NCBI GenBank assembly: GCA_012517145.1
Contig: JAAYVM010000118.1
Location: 1 to 34,364, forward strand
Reading direction: 5' to 3'
DNA: 34,364 nucleotides
Origin: Acholeplasmataceae bacterium
Lineage (GTDB): Bacteria > Bacillota > Negativicutes > Acidaminococcales > Acidaminococcaceae
Both the position numbers and the translations under genes were made by a program. Every line of letters begins with the position of its first letter. Position 1 is the stretch's first letter. The notes beneath the pieces were generated by a model. It worked only from the letters and a program-made list of their open reading frames with translations, was not told where the DNA came from and searched no databases. This document shows, piece by piece, positions 12,403 through 23,455 of the stretch.

Positions 12403-13380
12403 TCATACATTAAGTTTTTGTATTTTTTTCAAAGAACTATCAAGTGCTTGAGCCCTTTCCTCCAATAATTCGTAAATTCTCTCCAAATCATCCAAGGAAT
12501 AATACTCTATCTCGATTTTGCCACTTTTCTCAGTCTTTTTGACCACTTTGACCTTAGTTCCTAAAACTGACATCATTTTATTTTGGAAATCAGCGTAAAA
12601 AACATCCGGACTTTCTTTCGCCTTGGTCGTTTTAGTCTTTTTAACGCTATTTTCCTTTTTCTCCTGTACCGGTTCATCCTCAATCAAAGATTCAATGTCG
12701 CGGCCTTCTTTATATTCTTTGACGACATCCTCTACTTTGCGGACGCTCCAGCCTTTGGTAATTATTGTCTGGGCAAGCAAAATTTGTTTTGCCTCATCTT
12801 CTATTACCAATAGCGGTCTTACTTGTCCTAAAGTCAGCTCTTCTTTGGAAATATATTCACGTATTTTAGCAGGCAGATTCAAAAGCCTGAGGATATTGGT
12901 GACTGCAGTACGGCTGCGGCCTAATTTTTTTGCCGCATCAGCCTGTGTCAGCTGAAGTTTGTCCATCATCGCTTTTATTCCCTCGGCCTCTTCCAAAGGG
13001 TTGAGATCATGACGTTGAATATTCTCTATCATGGCTACTTCCATCATAGCTTCTTCGTCATAATCGCGTATCACAACCGGTACAGCTTTCAGACCTGCAG
13101 TTTTGGCCGCACGCCAACGCCTTTCACCGGCAACAATTTCGTAACGATTGCCGCTTTTGCGTACGATAAGCGGCTGGATTACGCCATGTTGTTTGACGGA
13201 GTCTACTAACTCCTTCATTTTCTCAGGTTCAAAGACTTTACGCGGTTGATAGGGATTCGGTACTAAGTCCGTTACATCAATTTCTTGTTTAACTTCATTT
13301 TCCGCTACTTCCGCACTTACATCTTCGGTGCTGCCGAAAAGAGCCTCCAAGCCTTTGCCCAAACCAGCGCGTTTATTCAT
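12403..13380 (-). CDS. parB: Chromosome partition protein ParB (Spo0J)
   Basis: This 325-residue CTP-dependent DNA clamp binds parS and spreads. It starts MNKRAGLGKGLEALFG, the N-terminal motif (LGKGL) that stimulates the Soj ATPase. The CTP-binding domain contains NPYQPRKVFEP and GERRWRAAK, followed by MIENIQRHDLNPLEEA. The helix-turn-helix is LTQADAAKKLGRSRTAVTN. At the four positions known to separate ParB from Noc it has Arg (RSRT), Ile, Asn and Gly (LTLGQ), which is the ParB side at the first and fourth. The C-terminal dimerisation domain follows a charged linker rich in Lys. The ATG overlaps the soj 3' end by 8 nt and AGGAGG lies 8 nt upstream, so soj and parB are coupled. Confidence 0.95.
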   Translation of the reverse strand: MNKRAGLGKGLEALFGSTEDVSAEVAENEVKQEIDVTDLVPNPYQPRKVFEPEKMKELVDSVKQHGVIQPLIVRKSGNRYEIVAGERRWRAAKTAGLKAVPVVIRDYDEEAMMEVAMIENIQRHDLNPLEEAEGIKAMMDKLQLTQADAAKKLGRSRTAVTNILRLLNLPAKIREYISKEELTLGQVRPLLVIEDEAKQILLAQTIITKGWSVRKVEDVVKEYKEGRDIESLIEDEPVQEKKENSVKKTKTTKAKESPDVFYADFQNKMMSVLGTKVKVVKKTEKSGKIEIEYYSLDDLERIYELLEERAQALDSSLKKIQKLNV

Positions 13381-14134
13381 CTCCGATAACCTCCTGTGCC
13401 AATTCTTGATAAACCTGTGCACCTTTGGACTTGGCATCATAAACAATGACAGGCTGTCCGTGGCTTGGTGCTTCGCTTAATCTGATATTGCGCGGTATTA
13501 TCGTATTGTACATTTTAGCATTGAAGTATTTCTTTACTTCACCAACAACATCACTGGAGAGATTAGTACGCGCATCAAACATCGTCATAACCGCTCCTTC
13601 AAGTTTCAAGGCCGGATTGAGATTGCGTTGTACCAGCTGAATGGTATTCATCAATTGAGTTACGCCTTCTAAGGCATAGAATTCACATTGAATTGGAACC
13701 AATACAGAGCTCGCAGCGGTAAGCGCATTTAAAGTCAAAAGTCCTAATGACGGTGGGCAGTCAATCAAAACATAATCATATTCATGTTTAACCCTGTCCA
13801 AGGCACGTTTCAATCTGCCTTCCCTGCTCATTACGGAAACAAGCTCAAGTTCGGCGCCAGCAAGTTGTATGGTGGCCGGCAGAACCCATAGGTTCTCATA
13901 TTCGCTCTTCATTATGACTTCTGACATCGGTGTGCCATTAATTAAAACATCATAGATGCATTTTTTTATATAATTTTTTTCAAAGCCAAGGCCACTGGTA
14001 GAATTGCCTTGTGGATCACTGTCTATCAGTAATACCTTGCGGCCCTTAGCTGCCAGGCAAGCTGCCAGGTTTACAGCGGTTGTTGTTTTGCCAACGCCGC
14101 CTTTCTGGTTTGCAATGGCGATTACTTTAACCAA
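13373..14134 (-). CDS. soj: Chromosome partition ATPase Soj (ParA)
   Basis: This ParA-type deviant Walker ATPase of about 253 residues dimerises with ATP on DNA and drives segregation with ParB. It also controls DnaA in Bacillus. IANQKGGVGKTTTAVNLAA is the P-loop with the signature Lys; DSDPQGNSTSGLG and VLIDCPPSLGLLTLNAL are the switch motifs. Near the C terminus, IPRNIRLSEAPSHGQP is typical of Soj. Three in-frame starts are close together: GTG 14143, ATG 14140 and TTG 14134. AGAGG lies 8 nt before the TTG but only 2 nt before the ATG, so I favour TTG, giving MVKVIAIANQKGG. Between this start and noc lies a parS palindrome. Confidence 0.93.
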   Translation of the reverse strand: MVKVIAIANQKGGVGKTTTAVNLAACLAAKGRKVLLIDSDPQGNSTSGLGFEKNYIKKCIYDVLINGTPMSEVIMKSEYENLWVLPATIQLAGAELELVSVMSREGRLKRALDRVKHEYDYVLIDCPPSLGLLTLNALTAASSVLVPIQCEFYALEGVTQLMNTIQLVQRNLNPALKLEGAVMTMFDARTNLSSDVVGEVKKYFNAKMYNTIIPRNIRLSEAPSHGQPVIVYDAKSKGAQVYQELAQEVIGDE

Positions 14135-14238
14135 GACCATCACCTCTCATTCGTTCCATTAGTTAATATTGTTTTACCGACTACTATATTCTACCATAAT
14201 TTATGCTTCATATATTAAAAAATATCATTTTGCCAAAG

Positions 14239-14276
14239 AAAAAAGTCAATGTTTCACGTGAAACATTGACTTTTTT
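14239..14276. promoter_or_regulatory. parS: parS site inside a 38-bp perfect palindrome (also terminator-like)
   Basis: TGTTTCACGTGAAACA at 14250-14265 is identical to the parS consensus. The symmetry continues perfectly on both sides through GTCAA/TTGAC to A6 and T6 ends, making 19-bp arms without a loop-forming spacer. The T run after the stem on either strand makes it look like a bidirectional terminator. It lies between the noc stop and soj, which are both transcribed leftward, so in RNA it would end the noc transcript. Confidence 0.95.
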
Positions 14277-14302: not shown

Positions 14303-15178
14303 TTATGAGTGCAATTTTGATTTCTTTGTATTCTTAATATGGAGAGTGACAATAACATCATCACCTTCCAGCTTTTGTTCAACCTTGACCGGAATGCCGG
14401 AAACTTCCATATTTTTAGTAATTTGTTTAATGCTATTCAGATAGATCCTGACATCCTGGATAATCATCAATCTCTTAGTTTTCTTAAGCTTAGCTGAATC
14501 CTGATGCTCTTCAATATAATGTTCAATGTACTTTTCAGCTTGTCTTACATTGTAACCGTTCTTTGTAATTTCATCAATAACATTAATTTGATCTTCTTCA
14601 GTGGTAAGTCTGAGCAAAGCACGCGCATGTCTTTCAGTCAGTCCCTGTTCTTTTAACAGCTTCCTTACCCTCTCTGTCAATTTCAGAAGACGCAGCTTGT
14701 TGGCAATAGTAGATTGCTTCTTACCGACACGACTCGCCATTGATTCCTGAGTAAGATGGAACTGGTCCATCAGTTTCTCATAACCATCAGCTTCTTCCAA
14801 ATAATGCAGGTCTTCTCGCTGCAAGTTTTCGATTAACGCAATCTCAGCAATTTGCTGAGAAGTATAATCACTGATTATAACCGGCACCAGAGACAGATTA
14901 GCCAGCTTGGAAGCGCGCAGTCTGCGTTCTCCAGCTATCAGCATATACCGTCCGTCACCCATAGGTGCAACCAGAAGCGGCTGCAATACACCATATTGGC
15001 TTATGGAATGCGCTAGTTCGGCCAAGGCTTCAGGCTCAAAATGTTTACGTGGCTGATACGGATTAGCTTCGATATTCTGCACCGGAACCTGAACAACACT
15101 AACTTCTGCTGAAGCTGAAACATCTTCCCCTAAAAGATTCGCTGCATCTAGATAAGCAAATTCATCATCAATAACCAT
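14303..15178 (-). CDS. noc: Nucleoid occlusion protein Noc (ParB family)
   Basis: This 291-residue ParB-family protein has the CTP-binding domain (NPYQPRKHFEP, IAGERRLRASK, LIENLQREDLHYLEEA). Its helix-turn-helix and linker contain KKQSTIANKLRLLKL and LTERHARALLRL. Against the Caulobacter ParB numbering used for specificity work, these give Gln173, Lys179, Lys184 and Arg201, the Noc set for NBS binding. The separate ParB at 12403-13380 makes a duplicate role unlikely. B. subtilis Noc begins with a basic amphipathic helix that binds membrane. Here the first 30 residues (MVIDDEFAYLDAANLLGEDV) are acidic, and the upstream in-frame sequence offers no such helix. GGGAGGGAG precedes the ATG by about 8-11 nt. 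The gene follows rsmG by 23 nt, the standard Firmicutes position for noc. Confidence 0.93.
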   Translation of the reverse strand: MVIDDEFAYLDAANLLGEDVSASAEVSVVQVPVQNIEANPYQPRKHFEPEALAELAHSISQYGVLQPLLVAPMGDGRYMLIAGERRLRASKLANLSLVPVIISDYTSQQIAEIALIENLQREDLHYLEEADGYEKLMDQFHLTQESMASRVGKKQSTIANKLRLLKLTERVRKLLKEQGLTERHARALLRLTTEEDQINVIDEITKNGYNVRQAEKYIEHYIEEHQDSAKLKKTKRLMIIQDVRIYLNSIKQITKNMEVSGIPVKVEQKLEGDDVIVTLHIKNTKKSKLHS

Positions 15179-21535: not shown

Positions 21536-21564
21536 ATTATATGATAGCTTTCATATACTGTCAA
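21536..21564 (-). promoter_or_regulatory. rpmH promoter
   Basis: Minus strand: exact TTGACA, a 17-nt spacer, exact TATAAT, an ideal sigma-A promoter about 70 nt upstream of the rpmH start. Confidence 0.92.
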
Positions 21565-21596: not shown

Positions 21597-21646
21597 AAAA
21601 AATCCAGATATTTATCCACACCTGTGGATAAATATCTGGATTTTTT
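21597..21646. promoter_or_regulatory. 50-bp palindrome with two head-to-head DnaA boxes
   Basis: TTATCCACA (21612-21620) and its complement TGTGGATAA (21623-21631) are two exact DnaA boxes separated by CC. The symmetry extends perfectly on both sides to 24-bp arms, ending in A4/T4 or longer runs. It sits between the divergent rpmH promoter and dnaA. It could be part of the origin (a bipartite upstream box cluster), an autoregulatory site for DnaA, or a bidirectional terminator insulating the two promoters. A near-box TGTTGATAA follows at 21656-21664. Confidence 0.9.
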
Positions 21647-21764
21647 CCACCGTCCTGTTGATAAGTCCATTGCCCTTTGATAGAATAAGTGTGCAGTGTT
21701 ATTTCTAGAACGCAAGTTAATCACAGTTTTTTAGCAAATTGTTGAAAATGTCCATACTTTGTCG

Positions 21765-23251: not shown

Positions 23252-23455
23252 TGTTCATAAGGACGATATAAGCTGTTAGCAAACGTGTTGATATCTTAAT
23301 ACCAGTTTTTCACTGTTTGTATGTGCATAAAAAACTCAGCTTTATAAACATTTTGTCCAAAGCCGAAACGAAGGCAGAATCTGTTCTCAACATGTTTATC
23401 AACATATCCACAGGTCCTACTACTACGGCTACTAAGTTTTTTATATTATTTAGGC
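23252..23455. other. oriC: Origin of replication oriC (DnaA boxes, DnaA-trio, unwinding element)
   Basis: The dnaA-dnaN gap contains several DnaA-box-like sites: TGTGCATAA at 23322-23330 (one mismatch), TTATCAACA at 23396-23404 (one mismatch) and ATATCCACA at 23404-23412 (one mismatch, abutting the former). Weaker ones are at 23252-23260 and 23342-23350. Directly after the last box comes GGTCC, then trinucleotide repeats CTACTACTACGGCTACTAA (23417-23435), then the T-rich stretch TTTTTTATATTATTT. This box / GC patch / TAC-repeat / AT-rich order is the basal unwinding system described for Bacillus, with DnaA-trios guiding single-strand loading. Confidence 0.9.

Follow-up and report, generated by a model that had tools for sequence, protein, structure and literature searches.

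Two facing DnaA boxes in a 50-bp perfect palindrome between rpmH and dnaA probably mark a control site in an Acidaminococcaceae genome

Results

A perfect palindrome encloses two DnaA boxes

The spacer between the rpmH and dnaA genes of Acholeplasmataceae bacterium GCA_012517145.1 (here genome G000), placed by GTDB in the Acidaminococcaceae, carries a 50-bp perfect palindrome built around two DnaA boxes that face each other, and this palindrome with its paired boxes is probably a real control site, not an accident. It lies in contig JAAYVM010000118.1, whose 34,364 nucleotides are referred to below as the window. The features of the locus are collected in Table 1.

Table 1 Features of the rpmH-dnaA locus and the downstream spacer, with positions in the window
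Feature	Position	Strand	Evidence
rpmH, ribosomal protein L34, 44 aa	21334..21465	-	Pfam PF00468
Putative rpmH promoter, TTGACA-17-TATAAT	21564..21536	-	sigma-70 consensus, 12/12 matches, 17-base spacer
Perfect inverted repeat, 24-bp arms, CC center	21597..21646	.	repeat search; hairpin z-scores
Left outer arm, 15 bp, A-tract at outer end	21597..21611	.	covariation with G009
DnaA box TTATCCACA, left half of head-to-head pair	21612..21620	+	box search; conservation
DnaA box TTATCCACA, right half, 2 bp from left box	21623..21631	-	box search; conservation
Right outer arm, 15 bp, T-tract at outer end	21632..21646	.	covariation with G009
Third DnaA box TTATCAACA, with the putative dnaA promoter's -35 inside it	21656..21664	-	box search
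Putative dnaA promoter, TTGATA-17-TAGAAT	21658..21686	+	promoter scan; pattern count in class spacers
dnaA	21825..23234	+	Pfam PF00308, PF08299, PF11638 (all three DnaA domains)
DnaA box(es) then CTACTACTACGGCTACTAAG, read as DnaA-trio unwinding element of the downstream half-origin	23396..23434	+	dnaA-dnaN spacer sequence, nearly identical in G009

The repeat search returned arms of 24 nt each (21597-21620 and 21623-21646), 100% complementary and with 2 nt between them. The palindrome reads AAAAAATCCAGATATTTATCCACA-CC-TGTGGATAAATATCTGGATTTTTT, and its central 20 bases are the two consensus DnaA boxes, head to head and 2 bp apart. An initial annotation made from the letters of the window had described two perfect facing boxes in a 50-bp palindrome between these genes, with arms free of mismatches and ending in A/T runs, and both descriptions were borne out by the repeat and box searches. 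Folding gave hairpin z-scores of about -10 for the plus-strand RNA, about -9 for the minus-strand RNA, and about -10 for single-stranded DNA.

Several simple origins for the palindrome were considered and rejected. Perfect palindromes with arms of at least 12 and a loop of at most 8 numbered two in the window versus none in 20 order-1 random copies, and this control, with the length and perfection of the arms, ruled out a chance palindrome. No part of the window matched Rfam at the gathering score, which led us to reject a known RNA family. A mobile or repeated element was likewise rejected, as a search of the genome allowing up to two mismatches located the arm sequence at no other site; with three mismatches it occurred in two places. 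The portion of the open-licence literature covered by our search yielded no account of this palindrome.

Promoters and origin architecture around the palindrome

The two flanking genes are transcribed away from each other, with the palindrome between them. The putative rpmH promoter, nearly identical in the nearest relative examined (G009, DnaA 84% identical), starts 33 bp to the left of the palindrome and is without a DnaA box. On the right side, 10 bp from the palindrome, is the putative dnaA promoter, whose -35 element lies inside the third DnaA box; the starts of the right palindrome box and of this -35 box are 33 bp apart, or about three helical turns. The pattern TGTTGATA-N17-TANNNT was found in 25 of 74 class spacers (24 on a stricter count, since the G003 match is doubtful, consisting of the palindrome's own right box and a doubtful -10) versus none at N16 and none at N18. 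The 74 cover only genomes with a parsed spacer, with 700 bp of upstream sequence standing in when no rpmH was located, and four of the rows do not represent genomes of their own (three second dnaA copies and the second G070 row).

Consensus DnaA boxes beside the putative dnaA promoter are what an autoregulatory site would contain, and a -35 element lying inside a DnaA box would look like the layout expected of a dnaA promoter repressed by DnaA. In B. subtilis and in other bacteria, DnaA has been shown to regulate its own gene (PMC8203912). It had been proposed at the outset that the facing boxes repress both divergent promoters. For dnaA such repression is plausible because the putative promoter is so close and has its -35 inside a DnaA box; for rpmH the proposal found no support, given the distance of its promoter and the lack of a box there.

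The dnaA-dnaN spacer contains TTATCAACATATCCACAGGTCCTACTACTACGGCTACTAAG, a stretch with a DnaA box plus CTA repeats that is nearly identical in G009. We take the repeats to be a putative DnaA-trio. The minimum of the cumulative GC skew falls in the same stretch. DnaA boxes are present on both sides of dnaA, with the trio-like unwinding element on one side, and the locus resembles the bipartite origin of B. subtilis because both the trio-like repeats and the skew minimum lie in the dnaA-dnaN spacer. The likeness extends to the upstream half-origin of B. subtilis (oriC1, the incA/incB region), which also has DnaA boxes in the rpmH-dnaA spacer with the unwinding element behind dnaA. The two halves of the B. 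subtilis origin loop together (PMC13220808).

The pair of boxes is shared by one clade

The only perfect DnaA boxes in the window are the two in the palindrome. Over the 2.47-Mb genome perfect boxes were not enriched (16 versus 24 for the reversed control), and the exact pair TTATCCACANNTGTGGATAA occurred once versus zero for the control pattern. Across the phylum the exact pair was found in 12 of 398 genomes versus none for the control pattern, and in 8 of the 11 pair genomes besides G000 the fetched stretch carried dnaA or rpmH.

The family sample began with 59 genomes, from which 8 without a DnaA match at 1e-60 and 4 others (G013, G069, G072, and G073) were subtracted to give 47; the second dnaA copies G029b, G035b, and G064b, whose starts are guessed, and the genomes G038 and G039 from other families are likewise left out of the count. 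Of these 47 Acidaminococcaceae genomes, 15 have two head-to-head boxes exactly 2 bp apart at a distance of 160-215 bp upstream of dnaA, by a search that allowed one mismatch per box at spacings of 0-8 bp and slightly more at a spacing of 2, a rule that favors 2 bp and under which alone the G011 pair was detected. The 15 are G000, G009, G020, G007, G003, G011, and all nine genomes of genus g13 (Acidaminococcus). In the other 32 the 2-bp pair was not found upstream of dnaA, and the pair is therefore not essential to the family; G012 has a pair spaced by 6 bp and farther from dnaA.

Conservation at the same place is confined to one clade. In a 56-row tree of DnaA, a branch supported at 100/98 has all 14 of the pair genomes represented on the same side (G007, which has the pair, was left out because its dnaA is cut by a contig end). 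The distribution of the pair requires one change on this tree, a result given by 0 of 500 shuffles. By hand count, 100 relatives held 48 exact head-to-head pairs at spacings of 0-8 bp, with 20 at 2 bp, 11 at 3 bp, and 11 at 5 bp, although these come from related genomes and are not independent. One further head-to-head pair, in Bacterium UASB270 (L042, position 3735), is independent and lies about 230 bp before dnaA; it has 10 further complementary bp per side, and the arms there resemble further boxes.

That the two boxes could hold a DnaA dimer, as first suggested from the letters, is supported indirectly by the 2-bp spacing kept across the clade and by the pair preference of E. coli DnaA, which was modeled on tandem boxes. 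E. coli DnaA binds in vivo mainly to box pairs 2-3 bp apart, and the double DnaA box described there likewise consists of two 9-mers separated by 2 bp, at which two DnaA molecules are expected to bind (PMC11317965). The likeness is one of spacing and not of orientation, since the E. coli pairs were modeled in tandem whereas the Acidaminococcaceae pair is inverted. Bacillaceae loci (L013, L017, and L018) also have head-to-head boxes, but theirs are 3 bp apart and have 0-1 complementary outer bp; in G000, by contrast, every perfect box of the spacer belongs to a single 2-bp pair, which lies within a long perfect palindrome.

In Acidaminococcus fermentans (G023), of the same family, a head-to-head pair with 2-bp spacing stands about as far from dnaA, but its outer arms are only 8 bp and the species has two dnaA genes. 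Two dnaA genes and two origins have been reported for this species, and its DnaA box clusters have already been counted; the accessible text of that report (PMC4403523) does not describe the pair as a palindrome. G023, G029, G035, and G064 (L152-L155) each have two tandem dnaA genes with several 2-bp head-to-head DnaA pairs between them, and in all four the first dnaA apparently lacks its N-terminal part.

The outer arms covary between two genomes

Among the 15 pair genomes, long perfect outer arms were found only in G000, where they extend 15 bp past the boxes, and in G009, where they extend 17 bp; the other 13 have 1-8 perfect outer pairs. Long arms were looked for through the rest of the pair clade and not found. 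In G009 the pair stands at the same distance from dnaA, and the palindrome is 54 bp and without a loop, its arms continuing through GGG/CCC past the A-tract.

Comparison of the 15 outer pairs of G000 with those of G009 showed six pairs changed on both sides, none changed on one side only, and none broken. Nine pairs were unchanged, five of them in the A-tract. The 100 bases to the left of the palindrome are 86% identical between the two genomes. When arms were simulated as diverging independently by 40%, 82 of 200,000 simulations retained at least 13 of the 15 pairs. The both-sided changes and the simulation therefore suggest that the arms are held for complementarity, and they would be maintained for pairing rather than for their letters, either by selection or by hairpin-templated correction, between which two genomes cannot distinguish. 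At the outset a specific function had been called unlikely should relatives show only single scattered boxes or lack conserved outer arms. Relatives in the clade carry the pair and not scattered single boxes; long outer arms, however, occur among these relatives in G009 alone, where they covary.

The symmetry of the arms might be purely mutational upkeep, in which hairpin-templated correction perfects any imperfect palindrome and the both-sided changes need no selection. Correction of quasi-palindromes in this way is a known process, and the restriction of long arms to two genomes suits it. We nevertheless regard it as unlikely, as the A5/T5 ends stay constant while inner pairs change, and 29 of the 39 other long palindromes surveyed in this genome lie in tandem or convergent gaps, which a pure mutation bias would not pick.

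The main rival to arms that act in transcription is a role in DNA pairing, with the arms kept so that a cruciform is extruded by negative supercoiling arising between the divergent promoters or so that single-stranded hairpins with one DnaA box per stem form as the origin opens. The DNA hairpin of the palindrome is stable (-21.8 kcal/mol, z -9.7), and the extension to 54 bp in G009 exceeds what a terminator needs. There is also a precedent in the A-site of the ABC primosome, a DnaA box in a hairpin stem that loads helicase in vitro in E. coli (PMC6127211). Our folding places a DnaA box in a hairpin stem in the same way, but the A-site is known from single-stranded templates in vitro. We consider this DNA-level role improbable, because the trio-like element lies about 1.8 kb away behind dnaA and the DNA of the palindrome is not known to be unwound, and because 13 relatives retain the pair without long arms. 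Moreover, helicase loading in B. subtilis proceeds via DnaD, DnaB, and DnaI and not directly from DnaA (PMC13220808).

The palindrome resembles a terminator in shape but not in place

The genome has many palindromes of this kind: 40 with perfect arms of at least 12 were found in the 390 kb surveyed, and the rpmH-dnaA palindrome is the second longest. The longest, at L282 12024-12092 (G000:C8), lies between convergent genes, and its arms are 31 bp each and perfectly complementary. Most of the 40 have an A-tract on the left and a T-tract on the right, as in bidirectional terminators, and the rpmH-dnaA palindrome shares this design. Besides the 29 in tandem or convergent gaps, the other 39 include eight that fall within called ORFs, one at an edge, and one called divergent (L282:4518), which seems to follow a gene, a plus-strand stop codon apparently standing just before it. 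The rpmH-dnaA palindrome is thus the only one of the 40 judged to lie between divergent genes, where placement relied on a crude ORF list with a 60-aa minimum and, with rpmH (44 aa) below that minimum, the divergent assignment of this palindrome was made by hand. Palindromes are common in the genome; what is unusual here is the DnaA pair inside and the divergent location.

The initial annotation had held that the element, as RNA, would act as a terminator on either strand. Its shape agrees with this, as a stable hairpin is flanked by an A-tract and a T-tract, but its place does not, since no gene ends on either side. The terminator scan called the palindrome on the minus strand and listed none on the plus strand because the T run there is part of the stem. 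The standing of an ordinary terminator was lowered on these grounds, as the palindrome follows no gene and the other long palindromes are mostly at gene ends.

A plain bidirectional terminator, in which the DnaA boxes would be accidental to a shared A/T-rich palindrome, accounts for the A-tract/stem/T-tract design common to the long palindromes of this genome and for the terminator-like minus strand. It leaves unexplained a pair that ranges wider than the arms, most of the 15 genomes that carry it being without long arms, that sits away from gene ends, and that is the only exact 2-bp pair in the genome; we judge it very unlikely. Uptake-sequence terminators of Neisseria and Pasteurellaceae offer a parallel in which a protein-recognized word in inverted repeat forms the hairpin stem, but these number in the hundreds and stand at gene ends (PMC1852404), unlike the single-copy palindrome between divergent genes examined here.

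parS sites in palindromes

The second palindrome in the window (14239-14276) is perfect and 38 bp long, with a consensus parS at its center and A6/T6 ends, and lies between a ParB/Noc-type gene (14303-15178, minus strand) and a ParA gene (13373-14143, minus strand). In several relatives (L200, L203, L204, L209, and L216) parS is likewise in a hairpin, with different arms, and a partition site in a terminator-like hairpin therefore recurs. Exact parS sites were numerous in genus g16 (40 in G061, 23 in G032, 35 in G026, and 19 in G015) versus 0-5 in other genera of the family. The g16 copies are scattered over contigs (loci L217-L219 and L248-L269), and in 9 of 23 inspected G061 and G032 sites a G3-5ACAT word followed parS by 9-11 bp, as if part of a dispersed element.

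Discussion

On balance, it is somewhat likely that the palindrome is an operator for a DnaA dimer, located beside the dnaA promoter and in the upstream half-origin, and that the flanks of this operator have turned into a paired structure that probably acts as a bidirectional terminator or insulator. The pair with its conserved spacing and clade, the promoter layout, and the both-sided changes are seen in the sequences themselves, from which the binding of DnaA, repression, looping, and termination are predicted. The box centers are 11 bp apart, about one helical turn, and two DnaA molecules could therefore sit on the same face of the DNA. DnaA bound to the pair would repress its own promoter, whose -35 element lies in a DnaA box about three turns away. 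The pair may double as the strong site of the upstream half-origin, and when occupied it would be a possible anchor for contacting the presumed unwinding element downstream of dnaA.

In the lineage of G000 and G009, the flanks would then have extended into long arms that pair with each other and end in A5-6/T5-6. Around the operator these arms probably serve as a bidirectional terminator or insulator, which would stop stray transcription between the divergent promoters; we read them so because the A/T ends stay while the stem letters drift.

The operator and the hairpin might instead be two states of one DnaA-gated switch. The same 50 bp would be a double-stranded DnaA dimer site when relaxed or occupied, and a hairpin when free, coupling the level of DnaA, local supercoiling, and rpmH-dnaA transcription at the origin. 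The free state would be either a cruciform, formed under the negative supercoils of the divergent promoters, or an RNA terminator. Covarying arms around unchanging boxes are the trace such a switch would leave, although we hold this reading to be rather doubtful.

Most work on DnaA autoregulation and the architecture of half-origins has been done in E. coli and Bacillus. Because this clade has a single inverted DnaA pair with strict spacing, it offers a natural operator of great simplicity, where few changes would suffice to test dimer binding, spacing, and promoter control. The covarying arms suggest maintenance beyond contact with DnaA at this spot in at least two genera, and with arms maintained in this way, a link between DnaA binding and a hairpin or terminator would be directly testable.
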